Part shown: positions 10,124-33,354 of the stretch, piece after piece | Layout of the letters: every line of letters starts with the position of its first letter | How positions within the stretch are numbered: the first letter of the stretch is position 1 | Assembly: GCA_029974225.1 (NCBI GenBank) | Contig: JARKSP010000016.1 | Span: forward strand, 1-33,354 | Source: Erysipelotrichaceae bacterium | GTDB taxonomy: Bacteria > Bacillota_I > Bacilli_A > Erysipelotrichales > Erysipelotrichaceae | Length of the DNA: 33,354 nucleotides | Direction of reading: 5' to 3' | Made by a program: the position numbers and the translations under genes | The notes under the pieces: model-generated | Told to the model about the DNA's origin: nothing | Seen by the model: only the letters and a program-made list of their open reading frames with translations | Databases searched by the model: none

Positions 10124-10558
10124 TCATAGCATTTCATTTCTATTGATCAAATACTCAATTTCATCAATCAGAAAAGCCATTCTCTTCTCGAAGTCTTTTT
10201 GCAGTTCACACTCCCAGACGGTAATAACAGCGTAGCCCAGCTGTTCCAGTTCTATAATATTTTTCAGATCATTCTCTCGGTTTCTTTGAAATTTGCTCTG
10301 CCAGAATTCCACATTTGATTTTGGCATCGATCCTAATTGGCAGTCATGATGATGCCAGAAACAGCCATTGACAAAGATGACAATCATGTGTTTTGTCAGC
10401 ACAATATCCGGTTTGCCAGGCAGTTTACTGTAATTCTTACGATAGCGGTAGCCGTGATGCCACAGGTATTTTCTCACTTTTATTTCCAGGGCATTTTCTT
10501 TGCCTTTAATCCGGGACATATTCCAGGATCTTTTTTCTTTTGAGATTCTATCATCCAT
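10124..10558 (-). CDS. vsr: very short patch repair (Vsr) endonuclease
   Basis: This 144-residue enzyme nicks DNA 5' of the T in T:G mismatches left by deamination of 5-methylcytosine, starting very-short-patch repair. The match covers the whole family: NMSRIKGKENALEIKVRKYL, RKNYSKLPGKPDIVL with catalytic Asp51, IFVNGCFWHHHDC with His69 and structural zinc ligands, and VWECEL near the C-terminus. Such genes normally adjoin a C5-cytosine methyltransferase. Here the only visible one is in the island at 17915, over 7 kb away. The start at 10558 matches the usual Vsr N-terminus, although no clear Shine-Dalgarno is seen. It lies 21 bases after the ADP-ribosylglycohydrolase stop and is probably co-transcribed with it. 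Confidence 0.95.
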   Translation of the reverse strand: MDDRISKEKRSWNMSRIKGKENALEIKVRKYLWHHGYRYRKNYSKLPGKPDIVLTKHMIVIFVNGCFWHHHDCQLGSMPKSNVEFWQSKFQRNRENDLKNIIELEQLGYAVITVWECELQKDFEKRMAFLIDEIEYLINRNEML

Positions 10559-10579: not shown

Positions 10580-11377
10580 TCATCCTACTTTGGCAGGATA
10601 TTTACTTTCAAATTCCGTCAATACCGCCAGCAGCTCTGCCGTTAAAAACAGGACAGCCTTTTCTCTGATGTCAGCAGGGATTCCATAATAAGCCTGGGCT
10701 ATACTTCCGGTAATAGCTCCGATGGTATCACTGTCTCCTCCGATAGAAATCGCATTTCTGATGGCATCTTCAAAACTGACCGATTCAAAGAAGGCTTCTA
10801 AAGCCTGAGGCACCGAGCCCTGACAGGAAACATCAAACCTATAGGTTTCACGAATATCAGCTAATGTAAAATCAATATTATAATAATGCCTGTTTATATA
10901 ATCCTTTATTTCTGCGATACTGCTTCCGGTTTTGGCCAGATAGATGGCTACTGCAGTTGCTTCTGCTCCCTTTATCCCTTCGGGATGATTGTGGGTGACT
11001 TCCGTGACCCTTCTGGATAATCTGACAGTTTCTTCTAAAGAGGCAGCCACCAGACCGCAGCCACTGACCCGCATGGCTGAACCATTGCCCCAGCTGTTAT
11101 AGGGCTTGGGATTTAAGGTATACAGCCACTGCCTGAAACTGCCGCCATAGCCGGCTGAAGGATATTTGCGGCCAAACTTCTGCATCCAGAAGATAGCCTT
11201 GTCCTTAAGATCTTCATAATCAACCGCACTTTCCAGCAGCGCCTTACCAATAGCAAGTGTCATCACCGTATCATCAGTAAAACGACAGTCGGCAGTAAAT
11301 AATTCAAACTCTTTTGACTTTCTGTTGTACCATTCAAAACGAGAGCCAACGATATCACCGATAATTGCTCCTAACAT
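10580..11377 (-). CDS. ADP-ribosylglycohydrolase family protein
   Basis: This is a 265-residue, all-helical, Mg-dependent hydrolase of the DraG/ARH family, which removes ADP-ribose from proteins, nucleic acids or small molecules. Metal-binding and substrate motifs are FTDDTVMTLA (Asp35, Asp36), GNGSAMRVS near 98, THNHPEGIKGAEA near 128 and GGDSDTIGAITG near 213, all intact. Length and complete motifs indicate an active enzyme. GAGGTGA lies before the ATG at 11377. It is followed after 21 bases by vsr. Whether the two share a function or just a transcript is unknown. The target of the hydrolase is not visible; no ADP-ribosyltransferase is in the window. Confidence 0.92.
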   Translation of the reverse strand: MLGAIIGDIVGSRFEWYNRKSKEFELFTADCRFTDDTVMTLAIGKALLESAVDYEDLKDKAIFWMQKFGRKYPSAGYGGSFRQWLYTLNPKPYNSWGNGSAMRVSGCGLVAASLEETVRLSRRVTEVTHNHPEGIKGAEATAVAIYLAKTGSSIAEIKDYINRHYYNIDFTLADIRETYRFDVSCQGSVPQALEAFFESVSFEDAIRNAISIGGDSDTIGAITGSIAQAYYGIPADIREKAVLFLTAELLAVLTEFESKYPAKVG

Positions 11378-14231: not shown

Positions 14232-14999
14232 TGATACAAACAAGAAAAGGAGTAGCAGTAAGCTACTTCAAGTCAAAAAATATCTAATTGCTGAGTGTTT
14301 AGGATTTGAGAATCTGCTATCTTCTCAAATCCTGTAAGAACACTCGCAATGTGTAAAGACTCAACAATTTATACAATGCACCCTCTGTTAAAACATGGTT
14401 TAATTAATCAATTCTGAAAATGCATCATAGCACATTTCTTCTGTAACTACTATGCTACTTAATTCCTTTTTCTTTGCAAAACAAAGGGTATAATACTTTT
14501 TTGCCCAAGTAGCTTTAGTTTTATTTTTTGCGGATTTAGGATGGTTTTTTGAGAATACTTTGAATTGCTCGCGCCACTTTTTACACATTAACATAATTGA
14601 GTCATATATGGAAAATAGTTCTTCAGTACCAAAAACACTGGTATCCTTTTCCTTAAGATAAAGATGAAGTGCTTTTTCAAATTCTCTCCAGTCATCCTCT
14701 CTGATTTTTTCTGTCAGCTGCTTTATCCAATCGAAGATACGTTCATCTTCTCTATTGCCAACGCGATCAAGCAGGTCCTGCCACTGCCTCCAAGTTAATT
14801 TTTCAACAGTTTTTTTATCTTGTTGAGATAAAATATAGCATTGCTGATAAAAACTACGTGTCACAGAATGTGCACCTTCGTTACGCTTTCTTTCTTCTTT
14901 TGTAGCCAAATCTTTTATTTCGTCCCAAAATTTACGCCTCTCTGAAATAGTAATATTGTATTTTTCTAATAGTTCCCCAAGAAAAAGTCCTAAATGATA
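14232..14999 (-). repeat. left arm of large inverted repeat flanking the island
   Basis: This 768-base arm covers the 3' 600 bases of the helical-protein gene and its downstream hairpin region. It matches the opposite strand of 19929-20426 with few mismatches by eye (about 95% or better), except that the right arm lacks 270 bases. The deletion endpoints are both ACAGAA on the coding strand (TTCTGT at 14439-14444 and 14709-14714), a typical short direct-repeat deletion. Homology ends sharply at TGATAC (14232) on the outer side. Confidence 0.92.
14287..14350 (-). terminator. long hairpin, probable terminator of the ATPase operon
   Basis: A 64-base interrupted palindrome is present: ATTGC, GAGTGTT and AGGATTTGAGAA on one side pair with TTCTCAAATCCT, AACACTC and GCAAT on the other. 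On the minus strand, ATTTTTT follows a few bases after the stem. The same element recurs in the right arm at 20308-20371. A terminator is the simplest reading, though the stem is longer than most in the window. Confidence 0.6.
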
Positions 15000-15164
15000 C
15001 TTATACCAAACACCTTGGCCGTATTCCTCTTCCAAATCTGCCTCGATTGTCGGTATTTCTTCTTGTAGAACACGCAGTATTTCATCTATTGATGCTTTCT
15101 CTTTTGAGGATAATAAACCATCATATACAAGGTGACCATCTACTAGCCTAACAACATGTTTCAT
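14400..15164 (-). CDS. helical protein of defence operon, possibly DUF1016 N-domain-like
   Basis: This 254-residue, highly charged, mainly helical cytoplasmic protein has no signal peptide. Residues about 75-160 (SERRKFWDEIKDLATKEERK ... LTWRQWQDLLDR ... RIFDWIKQL) recall the N-terminal helical domain of DUF1016/YhcG proteins found around restriction systems. The similarity is weak and by eye. No PD-(D/E)xK nuclease motif follows. The C-terminal part (about 150-245) is Lys/Trp-rich. It is the last gene of the operon, 10 bases after the ATPase stop, with GAGGGG before the ATG. A truncated second copy on the plus strand lies at the other end of the island. It is probably an ATPase partner or effector. 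Confidence 0.75.
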   Translation of the reverse strand: MKHVVRLVDGHLVYDGLLSSKEKASIDEILRVLQEEIPTIEADLEEEYGQGVWYKYHLGLFLGELLEKYNITISERRKFWDEIKDLATKEERKRNEGAHSVTRSFYQQCYILSQQDKKTVEKLTWRQWQDLLDRVGNREDERIFDWIKQLTEKIREDDWREFEKALHLYLKEKDTSVFGTEELFSIYDSIMLMCKKWREQFKVFSKNHPKSAKNKTKATWAKKYYTLCFAKKKELSSIVVTEEMCYDAFSELIN

Positions 15165-17914: not shown

Positions 17915-19516
17915 CTATCTTATAATACTTAGCAAATGTTCAGCAATTCCTTTTGCTAGAAGTGGAGGCACCGCATTTCCAACTTGTTGATATTGAGAAT
18001 CTTTTGTACCCATAAACTCAAAATAATCTGGAAATGATTGTAGCCTTGCTGCCTCACGCACTGAAATCGCACGATCAAGCTTAGGGTGAATCCACATTGA
18101 TTTTCTTACATTTACTACAGTGCCGGACGGTTCATCCGGGTGTAATCGTAAATATATAGTATTCTGCGTTCTCTCTGGTTTTGTGTAGCTAGACTTCATT
18201 TCGATTGAAAGGCTATGGAAATTTTCCCCAGGTTTAATAACTTTAAATCTTTTCATTGCTGTATCAGTTGTTTTTGTAGTAATGTGATTTTTGACTGAAG
18301 TGCTATTCGTCCTCATTGTTTTCGCATACTCACTTATCGTATCATTTTCCCAGTAGGTAACAGCTTCATATTTGAACTCATATCCTACATCATACCCTTG
18401 CAAATCAAGGATTGCATCATCAACTGTGGGAACGCTTATATTTTTAGGTTCTTTCGGGAGTTTCGGAATAACATCAGGATGAATTTCTTTACGTATTCCC
18501 ATAACAATATAACGTTTTCGCTCTTGAGGAACTCCAAACCATTTTGCATTTAAAGTGTCTCCAACCTGTACATATTCTCCATTCAATATGGCATTTATAT
18601 AATCAATTACAGAATAAGAATGCGTTGTGAACACTAAAAAACCTTCATCATCAATAGTGTAATCGCCAATAATTCTGTTTTTATGAATTTCCTGAATAAC
18701 ACTAAACAGTTTATGTAGCGCAACTATATACTCTATTTCTTCTTTGAAGTTTGCAACAATGTTGTTTAAAAGGCCTCCCTTAATAATTTCTAATCTACTA
18801 ATAATCGCAATAATAGCTTTATCTTTTTGAGTAACGTAACTATTACAATAATTATCAATTAAAAGGATTACTCTTTTGGTTTGTTTTTCCAAAAAATTTG
18901 GAAGTCGTTTGGCATTTAATATGTTTTTATTCAAAACATTTAGAAGTTTAAATAAATCTTCAGGAATTAAATATTTGTCAAAATTTAAACTATTCACATC
19001 CGCAAAATCAATACCTTCGAAATTACTTTTGCCTAGACGAATAACATCTCTTCGCTTTGGAATCTTATAACCTTTTTGTCTTAGTTCATTTATGGTATGT
19101 TCATCCTTATATGATTCATAGAAACGATGCGTATCCGAACGTAACGAACTTACATTTTCCATTATAAATGCTTCTGGCTGAATTTCTTTGATTGCACGAA
19201 AATACTCTTTTATGAGGTCATTATTCATGCAAACGAGATTTTTCTTTTGTCTGTTTGCATTGGAAAAACCCTGGCATGGTGGACCACCAATAATTACATC
19301 AATACCCCCAAGTTTTTCTTTCAATGAAGTAAAATCATAACCTACTACATTATCTATAAAAGTAAAGTCTTCACATTTTTTAGCGATATTTACACTATAT
19401 GTAGCCCTTGCATTCTTGTCTATTTCAGCCGCTGCTAGGATTTTAAATTTACCAGCAAGTTGAAAACCAAGGCTTAGTCCTCCTGCGCCGGCAAACAAAT
19501 CAATTGTTTTTAGCAT
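17915..19516 (-). CDS. DNA (cytosine-5) methyltransferase
   Basis: This 533-residue C5-cytosine methyltransferase transfers a methyl group from S-adenosylmethionine to cytosine in a specific DNA sequence. Motif I is DLFAGAGGLSLGF (6-18). Motif IV is GGPPCQGFSNANR with catalytic Cys81. Motif VI is ENV (120-122), motif VIII is PQERKRYIVMG near 330, the RLQ region is near 490 and motif X is QVGNAVPP near 511. The stretch between motifs VI and VIII is about 200 residues, longer than usual, indicating an insertion. The target-recognition region lies roughly at 350-460. The start ATG overlaps the end of the HTH gene by 17 bases. It should protect self DNA in the island's presumed defence system. 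The recognition sequence cannot be read from the protein. Confidence 0.95.
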   Translation of the reverse strand: MLKTIDLFAGAGGLSLGFQLAGKFKILAAAEIDKNARATYSVNIAKKCEDFTFIDNVVGYDFTSLKEKLGGIDVIIGGPPCQGFSNANRQKKNLVCMNNDLIKEYFRAIKEIQPEAFIMENVSSLRSDTHRFYESYKDEHTINELRQKGYKIPKRRDVIRLGKSNFEGIDFADVNSLNFDKYLIPEDLFKLLNVLNKNILNAKRLPNFLEKQTKRVILLIDNYCNSYVTQKDKAIIAIISRLEIIKGGLLNNIVANFKEEIEYIVALHKLFSVIQEIHKNRIIGDYTIDDEGFLVFTTHSYSVIDYINAILNGEYVQVGDTLNAKWFGVPQERKRYIVMGIRKEIHPDVIPKLPKEPKNISVPTVDDAILDLQGYDVGYEFKYEAVTYWENDTISEYAKTMRTNSTSVKNHITTKTTDTAMKRFKVIKPGENFHSLSIEMKSSYTKPERTQNTIYLRLHPDEPSGTVVNVRKSMWIHPKLDRAISVREAARLQSFPDYFEFMGTKDSQYQQVGNAVPPLLAKGIAEHLLSIIR

Positions 19517-19928: not shown

Positions 19929-20258
19929 TATCATGAGGCTATTTTTCTTGGGGAACTATTAGAAAAATACAATATTTCTATTTCAGAGAGGAGTAAATTT
20001 TGGGACGAAATAAAAGATTTGGCTACTAAAGAAGAAAGAAAGCGTAACGAAGGTGCACATTCTGTGACACGTAGTTTTTATCAGAAATTCTATATTTTAT
20101 CTCAACAAGATAAAAAAACTGTTGAAAAATTAACTTGGAGGCAGTGGCAAGACCTGCTTGATCGCGTTGGCAACAGAGAAGATGAACGTATCTTCGATTG
20201 GATAAAGCTGCTGACAGAAGAAATGTGCTATGACACATTTTCAGAATTGATTAATTAA
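19929..20258 (+). pseudogene. truncated second copy of the helical defence protein gene
   Basis: These 110 codons, in one open frame and ending at TAA, match the helical protein at 14400-15164. They begin inside its YKYHLGLFLGELLEKYN segment, so the first 50-odd residues and the start codon are missing. They also lack 90 internal codons, joining IKLLTEEMCYD in frame. The deletion lies between two ACAGAA repeats that are still present in the intact copy. There is no ribosome binding site. The frame has stayed open with few substitutions, which suggests a recent origin or that the segment is sometimes expressed after recombination. Confidence 0.85.
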
Positions 20259-22905: not shown

Positions 22906-24231
22906 CTATTTTGCCGGTTTTCTATTTAACCAGCACAGCAGTATAAATGAGGCAACAATTATAGCGATACCAATATATGGCTGTTTCAGAATTGTCATTA
23001 TTACCATTACGTCGATACAGTCATGACCAACTCCGGCAGCTCCATAGGCAGCATAGTCAAAGATGGTAAACAGGAATCCTGAACCAACAATCAATAAGAA
23101 GCCATAGACAAATCCGGAAATAATAGCCCCACGGGTTCCACCTCTAGCATTACCGAAAATACCGGCAACACCACCGGTGAAGAAGGCACCGATAATTGAA
23201 ACCAGCGGTACGGATTTGAATAATACTGAAGAAGCCAGCATACCGACAATCATACCCACAACTGCTGTGACAAAGCCAATCATCAGACTGTTAGGTGCAT
23301 AGGCAAATAATGCCGGTACATCTAATGCCGGAACAGCACCAGGTACCAGTTTGTCAGAAATACCTTTAAAAGCCGGTACCAGTTCACCTAAGAACATTCT
23401 TACCCCCTGCAGTAATACCAGAATACCAGCGGTGAAGCCTAAGGCCTTTAAAATACCATATACGATATAATTGTGAGCCCCGGCATGAGCTGCTACCGCT
23501 TCCGGTCCAGCCAGCAGTACGACAATCAGATAGAAGATTCCCATAACGATTGCTACCGACATTGATGTATCTTTAAAGAAACTCAATGATTCCGGCAGTT
23601 TAATGTCTTCAGCATTCTTACTCTTGTCACCTAACAGTCCACCAATATAGGCAGCAGGAACCGTTCCTAAGGTTGTCAGATGAGCATAGGCAAACTGATC
23701 AGATTTGGTAATCAGTCTGATTGTAGGCTGAGCAATAGCCGGCAAAATTACCATCACCAGTCCCTGCAATATGGCACCGACAACAATGATCATTGTTTCA
23801 TTAAAGCCACCTACATATAAGCTTCCGGCAATTGCGACTGATAGAATCCACATCATATGTCCAGTCAGGAAAATGTATTTCAGCGGACTGAATCTGGCAA
23901 CAATCACGTTTACCAGAAAACCAACTGCCATAATCAGGGCACTGGTACTGGCAATTACCGGTACAGCACTCTGCATCGCTCCTACTACCGCTTCTGATGA
24001 AGTAGCAAACCCCTGCAGATTGAATACCAATGAAAATAAATCCACAAAAGGGAGAATCTCTCCAACAATTAACCCCGCTCCGGCACCAAGAACCAGCATC
24101 CCTAAAGCTGTCTTGACTGTACCAGAGAAAACCTGAGCCGCGCTTTTTCCCTGCAGCAATAAACCGATAAGCGCTACCAGACCCAAAACGATTGCGGGCG
24201 TTTCGAGAATGTTAATCAAGAAATCTAGCAT
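22906..24231 (-). CDS. PTS IIC permease, ascorbate/galactitol (UlaA-like) family
   Basis: This 441-residue polytopic membrane protein has about ten or more hydrophobic helices and forms the sugar channel of a phosphotransferase system. It begins ETPAIVLGLVALIGLLLQGK and then TVKTALGMLVLGAGAGLIVG, characteristic of the SgaT/UlaA (EIIC-GAT superfamily) permeases. FLTGHMMW near 135 and NARGGTRGAIISG near 365 are further conserved places. It is the last gene of a four-gene operon, 14 bases after IIB. AAGGAGGT precedes its start. The family transports L-ascorbate in enterobacteria, but many Bacillota members have other or unknown substrates, so I do not assign one. Confidence 0.9.
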   Translation of the reverse strand: MLDFLINILETPAIVLGLVALIGLLLQGKSAAQVFSGTVKTALGMLVLGAGAGLIVGEILPFVDLFSLVFNLQGFATSSEAVVGAMQSAVPVIASTSALIMAVGFLVNVIVARFSPLKYIFLTGHMMWILSVAIAGSLYVGGFNETMIIVVGAILQGLVMVILPAIAQPTIRLITKSDQFAYAHLTTLGTVPAAYIGGLLGDKSKNAEDIKLPESLSFFKDTSMSVAIVMGIFYLIVVLLAGPEAVAAHAGAHNYIVYGILKALGFTAGILVLLQGVRMFLGELVPAFKGISDKLVPGAVPALDVPALFAYAPNSLMIGFVTAVVGMIVGMLASSVLFKSVPLVSIIGAFFTGGVAGIFGNARGGTRGAIISGFVYGFLLIVGSGFLFTIFDYAAYGAAGVGHDCIDVMVIMTILKQPYIGIAIIVASFILLCWLNRKPAK

Positions 24232-24245
24232 TTAATATTACCTCC

Positions 24246-24527
24246 TTAAATAATTCCTTTCTCTTTTAAATACTGTTCTAATTTATTTTTAGCCTCGCTG
24301 GCATCTACCATATTCTCCAGGTAGACAACATTGTCCTGATCAGCGAAGTTTTTTCTGAATTCTTCAGTTGTAACAATGAAATCACATGGTTTACCTTTGA
24401 CAGTTCCCATATCCCAGTGCTCGATGTTACACTTAACTCCCAGTTGATTCATTGCCGAATCTACGGTCATCTTCATTATTAATGATGATCCTACCCCTAA
24501 TCCACAAACGGTAATAATTTTCAGCAT
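24246..24527 (-). CDS. PTS IIB component, ascorbate/galactitol type
   Basis: This 93-residue cytoplasmic phosphocarrier passes phosphate from IIA to the incoming sugar. The phosphorylated cysteine is Cys8 in ITVCGLGVGSSLI, the signature P-loop of the lactate/galactitol/ascorbate IIB group. Length is typical. It lies 12 bases after the SIS gene and 14 bases before IIC, and ATAGGAGG precedes the ATG. It works with the IIA and IIC encoded in the same operon. Confidence 0.92.
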   Translation of the reverse strand: MLKIITVCGLGVGSSLIMKMTVDSAMNQLGVKCNIEHWDMGTVKGKPCDFIVTTEEFRKNFADQDNVVYLENMVDASEAKNKLEQYLKEKGII

Positions 24528-24539
24528 TCCACTATCCTC

Positions 24540-25274
24540 CTATAAGCATGTGACCAAATCACGATATTGTTTTATATATTCTGCATTTATGACATCACCT
24601 GAATCTAAATTGGAACTTACATAAACAGGCGGTGTATATCCTCTTTCCACACACAGTTCAATTGTTCTAGCCATAATCGCATTCATAACCATCATACCCA
24701 GAATGGTAGAGGTACCGGAAAACTTATCTCTCATGCCCGGCATTGACAGACAGGCATCGCCGGATACACATTTAATATCAATAGCCACGTCAGCTGCATC
24801 TTTTAAATGCATACCCGAAGAATGACGACTTGATACACTGCCGGAGAATTCCTTTGATGTTAAGGCCACAACCTTCATGCCGATCTTTTTAGCTTCTAAC
24901 GCCATATCGACAACTCCAGCATTTCTACCGGAGATTGATACAATAATCATCGTGTCATCGGCTGAGGTGTTTTCCAGTTTTAAATACTCACCACTGAAGC
25001 CTTCCACCCTTTCCTGAATGGTGCTTAATTTAGCCTTAGGAAATAAAGCTAAATGAGGAATTATCAGAGCATTGACCGGCACCAGACCACCTGCCCGATA
25101 AAATACCTCCATGGCAAACATCTGAGAGTGACCGCAGCCAAAAACATGAATAACTCTTTTTTTGGTTATTGAATCAGCACAGTACTGAGCCACCTTCTCA
25201 ATATTCTCTGCCTCTTCTGTCATCTGACGTTCTAACTGTTCTTTAACGATTTCATAATACTCTAGTTGTTTCAT
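24540..25274 (-). CDS. SIS-domain sugar-phosphate binding protein (UPF0309-like)
   Basis: This 244-residue cytoplasmic protein has a single SIS domain, a fold that binds phosphosugars in isomerases and regulators. Visible motifs are VIHVFGCGHSQMFAMEVFYRAGG near 41-63, the phosphosugar loop MIIVSISGRNAGVVDMALEA near 108-127, and KVVALTS near 133. DKFSGTSTILGMMVMNAIMA near 184 completes the pattern of the UPF0309 group. It lies between IIA and IIB in the PTS operon, with AAGGAGGG before its ATG. It probably isomerises or otherwise handles the phosphorylated product of the transporter. The exact reaction is unknown. Confidence 0.88.
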   Translation of the reverse strand: MKQLEYYEIVKEQLERQMTEEAENIEKVAQYCADSITKKRVIHVFGCGHSQMFAMEVFYRAGGLVPVNALIIPHLALFPKAKLSTIQERVEGFSGEYLKLENTSADDTMIIVSISGRNAGVVDMALEAKKIGMKVVALTSKEFSGSVSSRHSSGMHLKDAADVAIDIKCVSGDACLSMPGMRDKFSGTSTILGMMVMNAIMARTIELCVERGYTPPVYVSSNLDSGDVINAEYIKQYRDLVTCL

Positions 25275-25287
25275 ATACCCTCCTTAG

Positions 25288-25731
25288 TTAGTATTTAGAT
25301 ATTTTTTCCATAATTGCCTCTTTTCCAGCATTATGGGTAATCATCTCAATGAATTCCCTGTCGCGTAATATACTGACTAAATTCACAAGCATTTCCATAT
25401 GTGAATCTTTATCAGTCGCCCCAAAGGCAAAGGCACAGTTGATCTGCTGATTAGCAAACTCCTTAAAATAGACCGGTTTTTCAAAAACAGCTAATGATAG
25501 ACAGTTTTCTTTGACATTAACCCCTGGCTCGCCGTGAAAAAAGCATACCTTAGGGACAAGAATCATATACGGACCATATTTGTTAACAACTTCAATCATA
25601 GAATCGATAAATTCTTCATTCACCTTATCTGCTTCCAGCAATATGTTTCCTGCGTATCTGGCTGCATCCTGCCAGGTATCGACACTGACATTAGTTATCA
25701 CTTTTTCCTCTGTTAAAAAGTCTTTAATCAT
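25288..25731 (-). CDS. PTS IIA component, mannitol/fructose/ascorbate type
   Basis: This 147-residue cytoplasmic phosphocarrier of the EIIA type-2 fold receives phosphate from HPr. The active-site histidine is His66 in KVCFFHGEPGVNV, where most relatives have PHARP. The neighbouring residues are therefore unusual, but the His is kept. YGPYMILVPK and CLSLAVFEKPVYF frame it. It is the first structural gene of the operon, starting 66 bases after the regulator stop. A palindromic GTTATAAC operator lies directly upstream and GGAGG is at the start. Confidence 0.9.
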   Translation of the reverse strand: MIKDFLTEEKVITNVSVDTWQDAARYAGNILLEADKVNEEFIDSMIEVVNKYGPYMILVPKVCFFHGEPGVNVKENCLSLAVFEKPVYFKEFANQQINCAFAFGATDKDSHMEMLVNLVSILRDREFIEMITHNAGKEAIMEKISKY

Positions 25732-25743
25732 TTTCCCTCCGTT

Positions 25744-25759
25744 GTTATAACGTTATAAC
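25744..25759. promoter_or_regulatory. GntR-type operator upstream of the PTS operon
   Basis: GTTATAACGTTATAAC is a perfect 16-base palindrome, 12 bases before the IIA start codon. It shares GTTATAAC with the operator upstream of the regulator gene, so both are probably bound by the GntR/UTRA protein. Its position next to the ribosome binding site would block transcription of the structural genes. Confidence 0.75.
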
Positions 25760-25780
25760 CACTTAATATGAAATTAAAAC

Positions 25781-25793
25781 TGGTTCTAAACCA
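25781..25793. promoter_or_regulatory. possible secondary operator
   Basis: TGGTT-CTA-AACCA is a 13-base dyad with the same TGGTT/AACCA arms as the regulator operator but with a shorter, odd-length centre. It lies between the regulator stop and the first operator of the structural genes. It may be a weak or decayed site. Confidence 0.4.
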
Positions 25794-25797
25794 TAAA

Positions 25798-26520
25798 TCA
25801 GCCAGTTAAGACTACTGTAAATTCAAATATATCTCCCTTGGAAACCAGTGATGAACAGCAGATAATCTTATCGTTACAATAAGATACACGTTTTACAAGC
25901 AGTCCGTACTGATTCTTCGGGCAATTCAGTAATTTGCATTCATTTGGGTTCAGTTGGGTGGCATTGAATGTTTCAATCGCCTTATTAAATCTGATGCCAT
26001 AGTCCTCATCCAAGGTCTTATATAAACCTTTTTCAGTGAAATCAATATCCAGTAAAAACGGTGTGACACTATATATAAACCATGTTTTTTCAACAACTAT
26101 CGGGACATTTTCAGCCAGTCTCAGTCTTTCAATGTATAAGAGTTTTTCCCCAATCGGCACTCTCAGTTTCTTGGCCAGCTTACTGTCAGCCTCTACTATC
26201 TTTCTTTTTATTATTCTGGTAGAAGACACTTTACCCTGCTTGTCCATTTCTCTTGAAAAACTATACACTTTGTTGAGACTCTGCACAATGCTTTTGGAAA
26301 GGACATAGGTTCCCTTCCCCTGGACCTTTTCCAGTTTTCCCTTTTTAACCAGTTCATCTATCGCCAGTCTAACTGTCATCCTGGAAACCCCATGCATTTC
26401 GCAAAGTTCTCTTTCTGAAGGTATTCTTTCACCTTTGGCATAGACACCATCATTGATCTGTTCCTCAAGAGTTTCAGCCAGCTTATAGTAAAGCGGAACC
26501 TTGTCATAGATATTAATCAT
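25798..26520 (-). CDS. GntR-family transcriptional regulator with UTRA domain
   Basis: This 240-residue regulator has an N-terminal winged helix typical of the HutC/FarR subfamily: LAETLEEQINDGVYAKGERIPSE, then LCEMHGVSRMTVRLAIDELVKKG and KVQGKGTYV. A UTRA effector-binding domain follows (about 90-235), with IGEKLLYIERLRLAENVPIVVEKTW and LYKTLDEDYGI. Such proteins usually bind a sugar phosphate and release DNA. It lies directly upstream of the PTS genes on the same strand. The palindromes at 26551-26566 and 25744-25759 are its likely targets, giving autoregulation and control of the operon. Confidence 0.93.
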   Translation of the reverse strand: MINIYDKVPLYYKLAETLEEQINDGVYAKGERIPSERELCEMHGVSRMTVRLAIDELVKKGKLEKVQGKGTYVLSKSIVQSLNKVYSFSREMDKQGKVSSTRIIKRKIVEADSKLAKKLRVPIGEKLLYIERLRLAENVPIVVEKTWFIYSVTPFLLDIDFTEKGLYKTLDEDYGIRFNKAIETFNATQLNPNECKLLNCPKNQYGLLVKRVSYCNDKIICCSSLVSKGDIFEFTVVLTG

Positions 26521-28627: not shown

Positions 28628-28690
28628 ACATCAAAAAAGTGCACAAGCCATAAATTATAAGTTCTAAAATTGGGTACACTTTTTTGATGT
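28628..28690 (-). terminator. long-stem terminator of the SIS/UPF0047 operon
   Basis: ACATCAAAAAAGTGCAC at 28628-28644 pairs with GTACACTTTTTTGATGT at 28674-28690, 16 of 17 positions matching, around a 29-base loop. In the minus direction the 3' arm itself contains T6. It starts about six bases after the last stop of the operon. Confidence 0.75.
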
Positions 28691-28695
28691 AAAAT

Positions 28696-29106
28696 TTAAA
28701 AGTGAGGTATTATGATACAAATATCATCTTGACAAGAATAATCGTCTGACAGCATTGAAATATGCAACTCAACTTTTTCTTTTTTCTGATGGTTTAACAA
28801 GTATATTTCTTCATTAAATCTAAGTGATACTTTTGAATTAATGACTGGGATTTCTATTGCGTTACCAATCAGGTTACTAATAAAATTATTCAATAGCTTA
28901 TCTTCCTCATCATTTTTCAAAAGTCGAGGAAAAATATAATCCATTTGACTTTCAAAATCTGATATACTTCTTTCATCACTTGTTGTTATGACACTAATAC
29001 CTGAGTTCAAAGACTGGATGACTAAGAATCCTTCTTTCAGTTTATTTTTGCCTATCAATGTATTGATTTGTTTCGTTATATTAACATACTTTTTATAATT
29101 GTTCAT
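28696..29106 (-). CDS. degenerate UPF0047 (YjbQ-like) protein
   Basis: The product is 136 residues from the ATG at 29106; an upstream TTG in frame is less likely. It overlaps the end of the second SIS gene by 14 bases. The outline follows the UPF0047 fold: an ITKQINTLI-type first strand and helix, LKEGFLVIQSLNSGISVITTSDE where active members have GLVxVFxPHTTAxLxxxE, then a C-terminal strand pair. The conserved histidines and the EFDGPR motif are lost, so it is probably not an active enzyme. It is more like the N-terminal half of the UPF0047 double protein in the same operon than like classic YjbQ. A structural or regulatory subunit role is possible. Confidence 0.65.
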   Translation of the reverse strand: MNNYKKYVNITKQINTLIGKNKLKEGFLVIQSLNSGISVITTSDERSISDFESQMDYIFPRLLKNDEEDKLLNNFISNLIGNAIEIPVINSKVSLRFNEEIYLLNHQKKEKVELHISMLSDDYSCQDDICIIIPHF

Positions 29107-30262
29107 TAGGCTTCTCCCCAAATACAACTACTTTACTATATACAATTGTATTATCCTCTTCTTTAACAAGGTTTCCTCTAAATGGCTCCTCTTCTAGAAG
29201 TTCTGAAAGTTGATAAGCGAATAGCGTCATTGGTAAATATGAACATAAGGGTTGCATATAACTATTTTCAGATTTAGGCAACTTAATTACCTTACATTTT
29301 TTATTTAGTTTTTCAAAAGGAAAGTTTTCGTCAGCAAACAAAACTGCCGGTTTTTCAATATTAATCGTTTGCTCAATAGTTTCCATTATTCTAGAAATGT
29401 TTTTATGTTTACTGTTTCCAAAAAAGAACACCGGATTTTCTAATCCTGATAGATTATTAAAATAATTAATGTGACCCCACTCTTCCGAGTCATCCCATCT
29501 TGAATGGATACCAGTAAGCTCAATTACTTTACTTACAGCAAACCTGCAAGATGGCTCTTCATCTTTATCTCCAATTACTGTAACTGATTTTGCATTAACA
29601 AACTTTTCTGCCAGTTCACTCATCAATGTTTCATATTCTGTGTATTTTTCTTTATACAAATTAGTGTAATGATTTATTTCTCCCAGCATCTTTTCCAGGG
29701 CTTTTTTCTCATTTTTTTGATCACTGAACTTAGCTGCCATTAGATATAAAGAAACTACTGAAGCATAATATGTTTTAAGGGCTGATTTATGGAATTCATA
29801 ATCTGGAACATCCATAAATAATTTCATTGTAACTTCATTATAAACATATGAATTTTCATTGCTGGTAATTAGCAAAGTATCTACACCAACCTTTAAAGAC
29901 CTTTTGACCGCTTCTACTACTCTACTACCATTACCGGAAACACTTACAATAATTGCTAGTGTCTCGTTTTTATTGATATCGGTAAAATCCAGATATCTAG
30001 TATAGTCAGTGGCTTTAATTGGTATAAATTTTACCGCATACTTACTGGCAATGCTTTCAAATATTCTTATACCAGCTAGACAAGCGCTATATGAATCTCC
30101 AGTGGCGACAAAATATATTCTTCTATATTTAGCAACTACTTCTTCAGTTATTAACAAATCCACTTTTCTTGCTAACTCTTCTGTATAATCTGGTATTAAA
30201 TCAAATAAACTGATAACTTGTTGTTTAACATTGTTTTTACTTCTCATTTTCCTTACCCCCAT
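29093..30262 (-). CDS. tandem-SIS-domain protein (second of two)
   Basis: This 389-residue cytoplasmic protein has two SIS domains, the arrangement of GlmS-isomerase and of AgaS- or FrlB-like sugar-phosphate deglycases and deaminases. The first domain has IYFVATGDSYSACLAGIRIFE and IIVSVSGNGSRVVEAVKRS. The second has SVTVIGDKDEEPSCRFAVSKVIELTG and WDDSEEWGHINYF. An SE-x-W-x-H pattern is shared with the other SIS protein of the operon. The start at 30262 overlaps the preceding UPF0047 gene by 26 bases; an ATG five codons later (30247) is a realistic alternative. It probably acts on the phosphosugar delivered by a PTS. Amadori-product deglycation is one possibility, without direct proof. Confidence 0.85.
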   Translation of the reverse strand: MGVRKMRSKNNVKQQVISLFDLIPDYTEELARKVDLLITEEVVAKYRRIYFVATGDSYSACLAGIRIFESIASKYAVKFIPIKATDYTRYLDFTDINKNETLAIIVSVSGNGSRVVEAVKRSLKVGVDTLLITSNENSYVYNEVTMKLFMDVPDYEFHKSALKTYYASVVSLYLMAAKFSDQKNEKKALEKMLGEINHYTNLYKEKYTEYETLMSELAEKFVNAKSVTVIGDKDEEPSCRFAVSKVIELTGIHSRWDDSEEWGHINYFNNLSGLENPVFFFGNSKHKNISRIMETIEQTINIEKPAVLFADENFPFEKLNKKCKVIKLPKSENSYMQPLCSYLPMTLFAYQLSELLEEEPFRGNLVKEEDNTIVYSKVVVFGEKPNEQL

Positions 30263-31058
30263 AATATGTGGTTATAACCCTTCTGTTTCTTGGCCCATCA
30301 AACTCACAAAAATATATTGTTTGATCTTTAGGTAACTTTATTTTGCCATCGACTATCGCAAACATTCTTGCCACCCCCCACATTGCTGATTTTATATGAC
30401 CAGCAGAATCGGCTGGAGTTTCGCGATGTTTAAAATCTATTCGATCTGGTATTAAATGATTCATTATAATCTCTAGTTTTTTTACAGCTTCTATATTTTT
30501 ATCATAAACAGTTAACGCTGCGGTAGAATGTGGAACAAAGACATGTACTAGACCATTAATAATGTTTTTATTTTTTATTGATGCTTCAATCAAATCCTTT
30601 ATATCTATCATATCTTTCTTTTTTGTTTTAACCGCTATTACTTCATTATGATTGCTTTTAACACCATAAAGAAAACATTCAAAACCAACATCTTTAGGAC
30701 CATCAAAATCAAAAGCAATGATAGCTTGTGAAGAACCTAAGTTTACTTTTAAATCTTTAAAAGTTAGTGTTAATGATTCACCAAGAATTGTAGATTTTAC
30801 TCTTGCAGCAGCATTTCTAGGAGAAATAACTGTTGCATAATTTACCATTATTGGAAAATTTCGATTAACTTCGTCTACCACATCAGCATAGGTTTTATCA
30901 TCAAAACTATTTGTAAGAACTAAAGAAGCTGTATCTGAATCGGTTTTTATATGTATAAAACCTTCATCATATGAAGTTTTCTTTAATAAATCATTTATTT
31001 TATGAGTGATATTTTTCCCAACAGAATAGTCTAAACGCTCAATTATTTTTTGCATCAT
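30237..31058 (-). CDS. double UPF0047 (YjbQ-like) domain protein
   Basis: The product is 273 residues. ATG at 31058 is chosen because GAAAGG lies nine bases upstream; an in-frame GTG at 31082 abuts the previous stop. Two UPF0047 domains are fused. The C-terminal one (about 140-265) is complete: GLVHVFVPHSTAALTVYD, DFKHRETPADSAGHIKSAMWG and CEFDGPRNRRVITTYYG, keeping the conserved histidines. The N-terminal one (about 1-125) keeps the outline (FIHIKTDSDTASLVLT, SPRNAAARVKSTILG, AFDFDGPKD) but lacks the catalytic histidines. UPF0047/YjbQ proteins show thiamine-phosphate-synthase activity in some tests, but their real role is unclear. Here the protein is embedded between two SIS genes in a sugar operon, which suggests a metabolic role. 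Confidence 0.85.
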   Translation of the reverse strand: MMQKIIERLDYSVGKNITHKINDLLKKTSYDEGFIHIKTDSDTASLVLTNSFDDKTYADVVDEVNRNFPIMVNYATVISPRNAAARVKSTILGESLTLTFKDLKVNLGSSQAIIAFDFDGPKDVGFECFLYGVKSNHNEVIAVKTKKKDMIDIKDLIEASIKNKNIINGLVHVFVPHSTAALTVYDKNIEAVKKLEIIMNHLIPDRIDFKHRETPADSAGHIKSAMWGVARMFAIVDGKIKLPKDQTIYFCEFDGPRNRRVITTYYGGKENEK

Positions 31059-31082
31059 CTCTATATTCCTTTCATATATCAC

Positions 31083-32228
31083 TTACTGATTTATAATCGT
31101 TTCTAGATTCAAAACTTTACTAGATCTGGTTGTACCATACTGTAAGTGTTTTTTAGTGCAGAAATCATCGGTTTTAACAATATTTTGAACATAGCCAACA
31201 ATTAAACTCGCTGGAATATATTCATAATAAATATGCTGATATGAGCCTTTTTCAATATGTGGTAATTTAATTACTTCACATCCTTCAAAATCTTCTATAT
31301 TTATATCACCCATAACATACACGTCTCTACCGATTTTTCTAGCATGAGCAGCTGTTTCAATTAATCTAGAATAACTTCCCTGGTCCTTGTGAGCTAATAT
31401 AAAAGTTGGAATTGGTTTTGCAGCTTTCAGATAAGCATGAAGATGACACCAGGTCTCAGATTCTTCAATACTAAAGAGTTTCCCAGTACATTCTGAAAAT
31501 TTGGCGGCAATAAAATATGCTGAAGCCAAATGGCTATCATCCGCAATAAAATCAATAACAACTGAATCGTATATTTTTTCCGCTATTTTTTTAGCTTGGG
31601 TTTTATAGTCTTCATATTTGTTGTTATATTTTTTGAATAACTCTAATATTTCTTTTTTGACATTATTTTCATACATTGAACTGATTATGCCTCTAACTCT
31701 GCCAAATTTAACAACTAAGGCTGTTAAAGAAAACAGCATTGCTAAATAGCTGCGAAGTCCAACACTGACATATTCAGGTTTAGCTAAATCCATCAGCAAT
31801 GTTCTATCTGCAAGTTTCGCACATCTGCTTTCTTTATTATTAGTTATAGCTAACGTAAGGTAACCTAAATCATTACCAACTGAAAGTGCTTCAACAGTTC
31901 TTGAAGATTCACCGCCATTACTAATACCAATAAGTAATGTGCTTCCAGGGGAATCTTTTTCATAATTATCCTTACTAACATATCTAGTAAAATATATTTG
32001 CCTAACAATATCTACCCCGAATGTGTCTCCATATTTTTCAAAAAACTTTTTTAACGCTATGCCTGATGCATAGGAATCACCAGAACCTGTAATAATTACT
32101 CTTCTAACGTTTAATATATCTGAAAAAGATAAACATTCTTCGACATTTTCAAATGACATAGATAATTGATGTTCTACTAAATCAGTTAGACTATCTATTT
32201 GCATAATCAACTTATTTCCATGATCCAT
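31083..32228 (-). CDS. tandem-SIS-domain protein (first of two)
   Basis: This 381-residue cytoplasmic protein has two SIS domains. Domain one has VIITGSGDSYASGIALKKFFE near 42 and the phosphosugar loop LLIGISNGGESSRTVEAL near 98. Domain two has DFIADDSHLASAYFIAAKF near 228, then IEESETWCHLHAYLKAAKP near 252, and a C-terminal segment with SYQHIYYEYIPASLIVGY. It shares architecture and the SE-x-W-x-H segment with the second SIS protein, so the two are paralogues. Similar pairs occur in mannose-type PTS operons for glycated amino acids (gfr/frl type), fitting the IID gene upstream. It leads a tightly packed four-gene operon. AGGA precedes the ATG at 32228. Confidence 0.87.
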   Translation of the reverse strand: MDHGNKLIMQIDSLTDLVEHQLSMSFENVEECLSFSDILNVRRVIITGSGDSYASGIALKKFFEKYGDTFGVDIVRQIYFTRYVSKDNYEKDSPGSTLLIGISNGGESSRTVEALSVGNDLGYLTLAITNNKESRCAKLADRTLLMDLAKPEYVSVGLRSYLAMLFSLTALVVKFGRVRGIISSMYENNVKKEILELFKKYNNKYEDYKTQAKKIAEKIYDSVVIDFIADDSHLASAYFIAAKFSECTGKLFSIEESETWCHLHAYLKAAKPIPTFILAHKDQGSYSRLIETAAHARKIGRDVYVMGDINIEDFEGCEVIKLPHIEKGSYQHIYYEYIPASLIVGYVQNIVKTDDFCTKKHLQYGTTRSSKVLNLETIINQ

Positions 32229-32369: not shown

Positions 32370-32422
32370 TATCCTTGAAACTTGACATTTATTTATTTGT
32401 ATTTAATACTTAAAAAGAAGGA

Positions 32423-32473
32423 AGCAACAACTTAGTCATAACGCTTGCATAACAGTTAGTATAAATTGTTGCT
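32423..32473 (-). terminator. rho-independent terminator after PTS IID gene
   Basis: AGCAACAA at 32423-32430 pairs with TTGTTGCT at 32466-32473. CTTCTTTTTA follows on the minus strand. It separates the PTS genes from the SIS/UPF0047 operon, so the latter needs its own promoter or partial read-through. Confidence 0.65.
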
Positions 32474-32525
32474 CCACAAATCTAAGGTGTTAATTTAACA
32501 AATAATTATTGTATCTTTTCTTTGT

Positions 32526-33354
32526 CTAAACAATTTTTAGGAACGATAAGAGTACTCCTAAGATGAACATTAAAAGAACAATCGTTTGTGCTTTAACACC
32601 TTTTCCTATTGCGTAGTATATTACCACAAAAATTACAGCAGGAAATAAATTAGGCATTATATCATCAATAAATGACTGAATTAAAACCGTTCTATCACCT
32701 ACAGTAATACATAAGGCTAGTTTAAACGAAACCATTGAAGCTACCATGCCACCAACAACCATTAATCCCATGATTGTTGCAGCTTTAGTAATATCTCCAA
32801 ATAAGGTTCTACTTTTTGCATCACTAAATAATTTAGCTCCATACTTCAAGCCATATTTTAGACCGAAATATCTAGAAAAAATAGCAGGAACATTAATGAT
32901 TAAAATAAACATCAAAGGCGCTAAGGCATTGCCTTGCATCGCTAACGAGATTGAAACACCTGCTGCAATAGTTTTTAAAGTTCCCCAGAAAAGTGAATCT
33001 CCAATTCCAGCAAGAGGACCCATCAAGCTTGATTTAACCGCACTAATACTGGTTTCATCGAAATCAGGGTTTTGAGCATTCTCAATTTCCATTGATGTTA
33101 CTATTCCATATAATAATGGAGAAAGATGCGGTGTGATGGCCATAAATTCCAAATGTCTATGTAGCGCTCTTTTAATATCATCCTTATCATCATATAGTTT
33201 TCTAGTTACATAACACATTGTGTATGACCATGCTAAATGTTGTTGACGCTCATAGTTCCAGCTTGCATCTAAAGGTAGCGACCTTAATAAGATTTTACGA
33301 AAATCTGTTTTCGTAATTTCATATCTGCTATTGTTAACTTCATTTGTACTAAAA
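32526..33354 (-). CDS. PTS mannose-family IID component, N-terminus outside window
   Basis: The frame is open to the right edge. Upstream of the first internal ATG (33218) the translation continues as ITKTDFRKILLRSLPLDASWNYERQQHLAWSYTMCY, the usual start region of IID proteins, so 33218 is not the real start. Further marks are KRALHRHLEFMAITPHLSPLLYGI, AVKSSLMGPLAGIGDSLFWGT and four to five C-terminal helices ending VLLMFILGVLLSFLKIV. IID forms the membrane channel with IIC of mannose/fructose/sorbose-type PTS, whose other genes must lie to the right. The sugar is unknown; the neighbouring SIS pair hints at an amino- or glycated substrate. Confidence 0.93.
   Translation of the reverse strand, partial: FSTNEVNNSRYEITKTDFRKILLRSLPLDASWNYERQQHLAWSYTMCYVTRKLYDDKDDIKRALHRHLEFMAITPHLSPLLYGIVTSMEIENAQNPDFDETSISAVKSSLMGPLAGIGDSLFWGTLKTIAAGVSISLAMQGNALAPLMFILIINVPAIFSRYFGLKYGLKYGAKLFSDAKSRTLFGDITKAATIMGLMVVGGMVASMVSFKLALCITVGDRTVLIQSFIDDIMPNLFPAVIFVVIYYAIGKGVKAQTIVLLMFILGVLLSFLKIV

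Follow-up and report, generated by a model that had tools for sequence, protein, structure and literature searches.

The closest described systems are the frl (fructoselysine) and gfr operons, which share an SIS-type deglycase and in which phosphorylation is carried out by a PfkB kinase (frl) or by a mannose-family phosphotransferase system (PTS), the latter being the phosphorylating step in the layout of the glucoselysine (gfr) operon (PMC12136445). The subject of the present analysis is a group of four genes in a stretch of 33,354 nucleotides (JARKSP010000016.1), hereafter called the window, which makes up the whole of contig C90 in a 1.57 Mb gut-type Erysipelotrichaceae genome; in this group, tandem-SIS proteins alternate with proteins of the UPF0047 (YjbQ) family. 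UPF0047 is found in bacteria and archaea and is represented by nine distinct solved sequences in the PDB. The one task known for it is a minor side reaction in thiamine synthesis and, to our knowledge, neither of the characterised operons, frl and gfr, includes it. The coupling of SIS and UPF0047 is real and conserved, and no published text that connects SIS enzymes with UPF0047 or YjbQ was found in a literature that excluded most subscription journals. We propose, with a probability of about 0.6, that the four genes encode a duplicated pair of SIS protein and UPF0047 partner enzyme for phosphorylated sugars derived from N-glycosides or glycated compounds.

Layout of the operon

Calling of open reading frames (ORFs) placed the four genes on the minus strand as one tight unit, in the order SIS–SIS, UPF0047x2, SIS–SIS, UPF0047, and profile searches assigned the domains as follows.

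31083..32228, minus strand: SIS1, a double-SIS (GlmS isomerase-like) protein of 381 amino acids (ORF; Pfam SIS 2.8e-12)
30237..31082, minus strand: ORF of UPF0047x2, two fused UPF0047 domains, likely ATG at 31058 (Pfam 4.6e-46, 156 bits, in two stretches)
30690-31013, minus strand: N-domain of UPF0047x2, histidines lost (whole-genome profile search)
30267-30605, minus strand: C-domain of UPF0047x2, intact (whole-genome profile search)
29093..30262, minus strand: ORF of SIS2, the second double-SIS protein, 389 amino acids, likely ATG at 30247 (Pfam SIS 3e-13)
28696..29127, minus strand: ORF of the third UPF0047 domain, a single protein, likely ATG at 29106 (Pfam 7.1e-9, 36.3 bits, cut-off 27)

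The order, strand and coordinates had been read correctly in an earlier inspection of the letters alone (the original prediction), which had also described the genes as overlapping or without spacing. The overlaps are there: SIS2 probably starts at ATG 30247, overlapping UPF0047x2 by 11 nt, and the third UPF0047 gene probably at ATG 29106, overlapping SIS2 by 14 nt. The zero spacing between SIS1 and UPF0047x2 depends on a GTG start; judged from the sequence, the ATG at 31058, which is served by a ribosome-binding site and leaves a gap of 24 nt, is the likelier one.

Active-site residues of the SIS and UPF0047 proteins

The S-E-x-W-x-H segment that had been claimed for the two SIS proteins is indeed present in both (ESETWCH and DSEEWGH). 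In a profile alignment to GlmS chain 1moq, numbered from 241, the residue at which the chain begins, the invariant Glu and His of the SIS family align with GlmS positions 488 and 504, and both window proteins retain this pair; E488 and H504 are catalytic residues of GlmS. The AlphaFold model of SIS1 (predicted local distance difference test score, pLDDT, 88.6; predicted template modeling score, pTM, 0.88) had GlmS isomerase domains as its top PDB matches, with template modeling (TM) scores of ~0.78/0.83 to 3tbf. The features expected of a GlmS-type SIS isomerase were thus found, the double-SIS fold on the SIS1 model and the Glu/His pair in both proteins.

Each of the three UPF0047 domains, taken alone in the whole-genome profile search, cleared the PF01894 cut-off of 27 (97.7, 62.5 and 36.4 bits), which upholds the original assignment of all three, the N-terminal and the third included. 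The alignment of histidine sites also bore out the claim that only one of them has kept its histidines: the triad is found in the C-domain of UPF0047x2, i.e., the middle domain of the three, and has been lost from the N-domain and from the third protein. In the latter all three histidines are gone, and the domain is very divergent, with a branch length >7 in the UPF0047 tree. Over both domains, the tandem protein is 34% identical to the tandem proteins of two other loci, L092 (Lachnospiraceae) and L100 (Clostridiales).

Duplicated copies have lost histidines in other modules as well as in the window. Twelve of the 21 modules with at least two measured UPF0047 copies carry a copy in which at least one of the three histidines is missing, and an intact copy was kept in all 21; where a locus had a single, complete UPF0047 gene, the triad was intact (8 of 8). 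The three histidines were likewise retained in the stand-alone and frl-type UPF0047 proteins that were aligned, and in the GAT-type protein an insertion makes the second histidine site uncertain. As UPF0047 proteins are trimers, the three domains of one operon would match a single trimer.

The frequency of degenerate copies also suits another explanation, in which UPF0047 is a regulatory or scaffold subunit that binds a sugar phosphate and either modulates the SIS reaction or channels it, so that loss of the histidines means loss of a ligand site. The overlapping genes and the matching copy numbers of SIS and UPF0047 agree with such a subunit. However, one complete triad is always retained, and in the frl-type operons described below UPF0047 lies several genes away from SIS, adjoining an amidohydrolase instead; we therefore regard a purely regulatory role as rather unlikely, and return below to UPF0047 as a partner enzyme.

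Recurrence of the pair in other genomes

The original prediction had called for a genome-wide search for adjacent SIS and UPF0047 genes, and such a search revealed the coupling in many other genomes. In an order-level sample of 295 genomes, the tandem UPF0047 protein as query matched 37, and the regions around 20 matches contained an SIS–UPF0047–SIS–UPF0047 cluster in eight genomes of another genus in the family, all named Erysipelotrichaceae metagenome-assembled genomes (MAGs). Where the contig permitted (one of the eight was cut by a contig end), this cluster was flanked by a PfkB gene and a TrpF-like gene, with an additional gene in between in some genomes, and was accompanied by ATP-binding cassette (ABC) permeases and a nucleoside hydrolase. 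When the window SIS1 alone was the query, no match was obtained in named genomes; an SIS alignment led by relatives from another genus gave 76 loci in named genomes, which were mapped with home-made hidden Markov models, the neighbours being confirmed by Pfam in representative loci.

The SIS–UPF0047–SIS–UPF0047 order was found in Erysipelotrichaceae, Oscillospiraceae, Candidatus Avilachnospira and Neobittarella, and a version with one more terminal UPF0047 in Bittarella (L094, L095). The exact window order, fused pair included, is present in L092 and L100. SIS–UPF0047 followed by a nucleoside hydrolase occurs in a Peptococcaceae and a Spirochaetaceae MAG. Clusters of SIS, UPF0047 and nucleoside hydrolase are seen in L098 and in L099, a single-copy version, and with an intervening gene in L097. 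In Anaerolineae, UPF0047, nucleoside hydrolase and SIS lie inside one cluster. The pairing thus spans three bacterial phyla, from Erysipelotrichaceae, Oscillospiraceae, Lachnospiraceae and Peptococcaceae to the Spirochaetaceae MAG and Anaerolineae. SIS-linked UPF0047 genes made up 29 of 47, a share that is biased upward since the regions were chosen partly for their likeness to the window.

Elsewhere, the pair is mostly accompanied by PfkB kinases, and often by nucleoside-type ABC permeases or nucleoside hydrolases; the neighbouring families comprise PfkB, IUNH, TrpF-like PRAI, ADP-ribosylglycohydrolase, nucleoside deoxyribosyltransferase and BMP-type ABC permeases. The ADP-ribosylglycohydrolase family adjoins the module in L097 and L104, and an ORF resembling it by eye is located at 10580-11377 of the window, ~17 kb from the module. 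In two related ABC–SIS operons (L220, 3402-5413; L221, 8371-10381), BtpA stands directly 3' of SIS, in the place of UPF0047.

These neighbours bear on the proposal that UPF0047 supplies thiamine phosphate synthase activity and that its place in the operon is incidental. The NCBIfam model TIGR00149, named secondary thiamine-phosphate synthase YjbQ (cut-off 67.75), indeed matched the tandem protein at 144.6 bits (the third protein scored 30.4 bits), and overexpression of yjbQ in E. coli makes up for the loss of thiE (PMC11551756). Against this, the neighbours are sugar and nucleoside genes with no thi gene seen among them, and ThiE and ThiM were above cut-off in none of nine module-bearing genomes, with one marginal ThiG match in a single genome, so that no source of thiazole phosphate is apparent; as these are draft genomes the absence is not certain, and the hydroxymethylpyrimidine (HMP) side was not searched. 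A thiamine role for UPF0047 in the module is thus unlikely, and an incidental position of a thiamine enzyme in this operon appears highly improbable.

Duplication history and relatives in frl-type operons

In a tree of 78 SIS proteins, the window SIS1 groups with the first SIS, and the window SIS2 with the second SIS, of L092 and L100 (Shimodaira–Hasegawa-like approximate likelihood ratio test, SH-aLRT, 98 for the SIS2 grouping). A separate duplication of the module is seen in the Oscillospiraceae/Erysipelotrichaceae branch. A single shared duplication, with all first-position SIS proteins together, was rejected (approximately unbiased test, p-AU 8e-6), and hence the module was duplicated at least twice independently. 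The original view of a duplicated two-gene module with one diverged half therefore stands in both its parts, with the qualification that the duplication is old and shared gene by gene with L092 and L100; the divergence sits in the UPF0047 half, both SIS copies having retained the catalytic pair. Near the module, L092 (15511-17891) and L100 (4014-6446) have a further SIS pair that has diverged and is not accompanied by a UPF0047 of its own.

The UPF0047 tree was built from a short alignment, and many of its forks are left open. It nonetheless joined the UPF0047 domains of SIS modules and of frl-type operons in one clade (SH-aLRT 91), except for the very divergent third domain of the window. This clade is apart from the stand-alone YjbQ proteins and from a group that ends GAT-type PTS operons, and the frl-type proteins are the sister group to those of the SIS modules. 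The other UPF0047 of the window genome belongs to such a GAT-type operon (L065, 5540-14125 of G000:C97), which it ends, with class II aldolase, TpiA-like, SIS_2 and NanE genes; in L190 and L191, too, UPF0047 has aldolase and TpiA-like genes close by.

About ten Erysipelotrichaceae loci contain an frl-type operon with FrlB-like SIS, BtpA, FrlD, FrlC and amidohydrolase that ends in UPF0047 (L062, L176-L180, L182-L184 and L186; L181 was cut before its SIS gene). The identities of FrlD (377.5 bits, cut-off 247) and FrlC (452.5 bits, cut-off 305) were both checked in L176, and that of FrlD also in L062. Two further loci (L059, L063) combine a mannose PTS, amidohydrolase, UPF0047 and FrlB-like SIS without a kinase, and two others (L056, L057) a PfkB kinase with an ABC transporter. 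The PTS loci thus have no PfkB and the ABC or frl loci have one; PTS and kinase being alternatives, this suggests that the SIS and UPF0047 pair acts on a sugar already phosphorylated.

These relationships also speak to the idea that SIS and UPF0047 serve separate pathways and are together only since the cluster travels between genomes as a unit. The distribution is patchy, and within the family the module is confined to the window genome and one other genus, as such travel would predict. Yet the pairing holds across three phyla while the other neighbours change, both genes have been duplicated together on at least two occasions, and a different SIS family is accompanied by a related UPF0047 clade, all of which makes joint transfer of unrelated genes an improbable explanation.

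Operon borders and neighbouring genes

Three features flank the operon.

32526..33353, minus strand: mannose-family PTS IID component, cut by the contig edge (Pfam EIID-AGA 2.2e-89)
32421..32475, minus strand: hairpin of 14 pairs followed by a T-rich stretch, candidate terminator between PTS IID and SIS1 (RNA fold -21 kcal/mol, z -2.8)
28628..28690, minus strand: long hairpin just 3' of the last UPF0047 gene, candidate transcription end (RNA fold -22.6 kcal/mol, z -4.9)

Neither hairpin was listed by a dedicated terminator scan, which admits loops of 3-8 only, and both are therefore rated as candidates. The IID gene, 297 bp from SIS1, is the only PTS gene seen upstream of the operon. Because a hairpin and T-rich stretch occupy the intervening gap, co-transcription of the PTS gene with the operon is doubtful, and IID is best described as a neighbour. 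The original prediction had seen a lead to function in the link between SIS and UPF0047 beside a mannose-type PTS; its sugar-phosphate part has been strengthened by the neighbours in other genomes, and its PTS part is weak, since a lone IID gene is visible and a hairpin lies in between.

Elsewhere in the window, a second carbohydrate operon is present on the same strand (22906-26520), with a GntR regulator, PTS IIA, AgaS-like SIS_2, PTS IIB and GAT-type IIC. A 79-amino-acid ORF at 20019-20258 (plus strand) repeats parts of a 254-amino-acid protein encoded on the opposite strand (14400-15164), with one stretch missing; this gene fragment is near a cytosine methylase (17915-19516) and a Vsr-like endonuclease (10124-10558), both assigned by eye.

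Proposed function

We propose that the four genes form one operon for carbohydrate catabolism. SIS1 and SIS2 would be enzymes of the GlmS/FrlB type, using 1,2-enediol (or enaminol) chemistry on a phosphorylated sugar and serving as isomerase, deglycase or amino-sugar deaminase. Their partner enzyme would be the intact UPF0047 domain, which would probably bind a metal through its three histidines and process the same phosphorylated intermediate, either ahead of the SIS step or following it. The two degenerate domains may be non-catalytic subunits that join the intact one in a UPF0047 trimer having a single active site. Most likely, the pathway would start from an N-linked sugar, either a nucleoside-like riboside or a glycated amine: nucleoside hydrolases, ADP-ribosylglycohydrolase and TrpF-like isomerase point to ribosides and the frl-type operons to glycated amines, and an N-linked sugar is the feature common to both.

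The estimate of about 0.6 given above applies to this proposal as a whole. What was seen directly is that SIS and UPF0047 are coupled, that the coupling is conserved, that the SIS proteins retain their catalytic pair, that duplicates have repeatedly lost histidines, and which genes lie nearby; from these we infer the shared substrate, the UPF0047 reaction, the metal binding, the heteromer and the compound class. A sugar-phosphate role for UPF0047 is favoured because the pairing recurs in three phyla beside genes that degrade nucleosides and glycated amines, and the pathway class of the module is fairly well supported. In E. coli, a pdxB mutant is rescued by overexpressing yjbQ, and hisB and php have the same effect; the routes are suggested to lead into the vitamin B6 pathway (PMC7954711). 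Together with the module neighbours, this rescue supports a role on phosphorylated sugars.

Several observations weigh against this reading. In the window, no nucleoside hydrolase or PfkB adjoins the operon, and the PTS gene is split from it by a hairpin. Ordinary YjbQ genes had no SIS neighbour in the regions examined, so that the SIS link is limited to a subfamily of UPF0047. Conversely, the SIS family is also found adjoining BtpA without UPF0047, and two loci (L088, L089) have an SIS pair without UPF0047, which implies that the SIS proteins can do without UPF0047. Long branches lead to the window sequences, and this weakens their fine placement. The model of the tandem UPF0047 protein was poor (pLDDT 62.7), its alignment of three tandem proteins being too shallow for a good one; it matches UPF0047 structures over one domain and is silent on trimer packing. 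Finally, the substrate, product and complex of the SIS and UPF0047 proteins are predictions.

A broader generalization can be put forward tentatively, with the odds somewhat against it: the entire SIS-linked UPF0047 clade may be a dedicated catalytic partner of SIS isomerases and deglycases for N-linked sugars (ribosides and Amadori-type compounds), the duplicates forming hetero-trimers with a single active site. The conserved partnership with SIS narrows the search for UPF0047 function to phosphorylated sugars, and singles out ribosides, glycated amines and their phosphates as candidate compounds. The recurrent combination of one intact and several degenerate copies is also a clear example of apparent pseudo-enzyme subunits having evolved repeatedly.

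Comparison with known systems

The window operon resembles frl and gfr in its SIS-type enzymes, and relatives of its UPF0047 close frl-type operons in the Erysipelotrichaceae loci described above. It differs from frl in that no FrlC or FrlD adjoins it and its SIS proteins are not FrlB, the FrlB model NF008481 (430 bits) giving no match to them at E up to 1. With the isomerase domain of GlmS, the SIS proteins share the double-SIS fold and the Glu/His pair at E488/H504; unlike GlmS, they consist of SIS domains only, without a glutaminase domain, and score 60 and 77 bits, far under the glmS cut-off of 418. Lastly, the fold is shared with the YjbQ/UPF0047 structures (PDB 1xbf, 1vmh, 1vmf, 1vph and 1vmj), and one window domain has the histidine triad. 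The window domains are distinct from these in being tandem-fused, in the degeneracy of two of the three, in their location within an SIS operon, and in belonging to a clade separate from stand-alone YjbQ.

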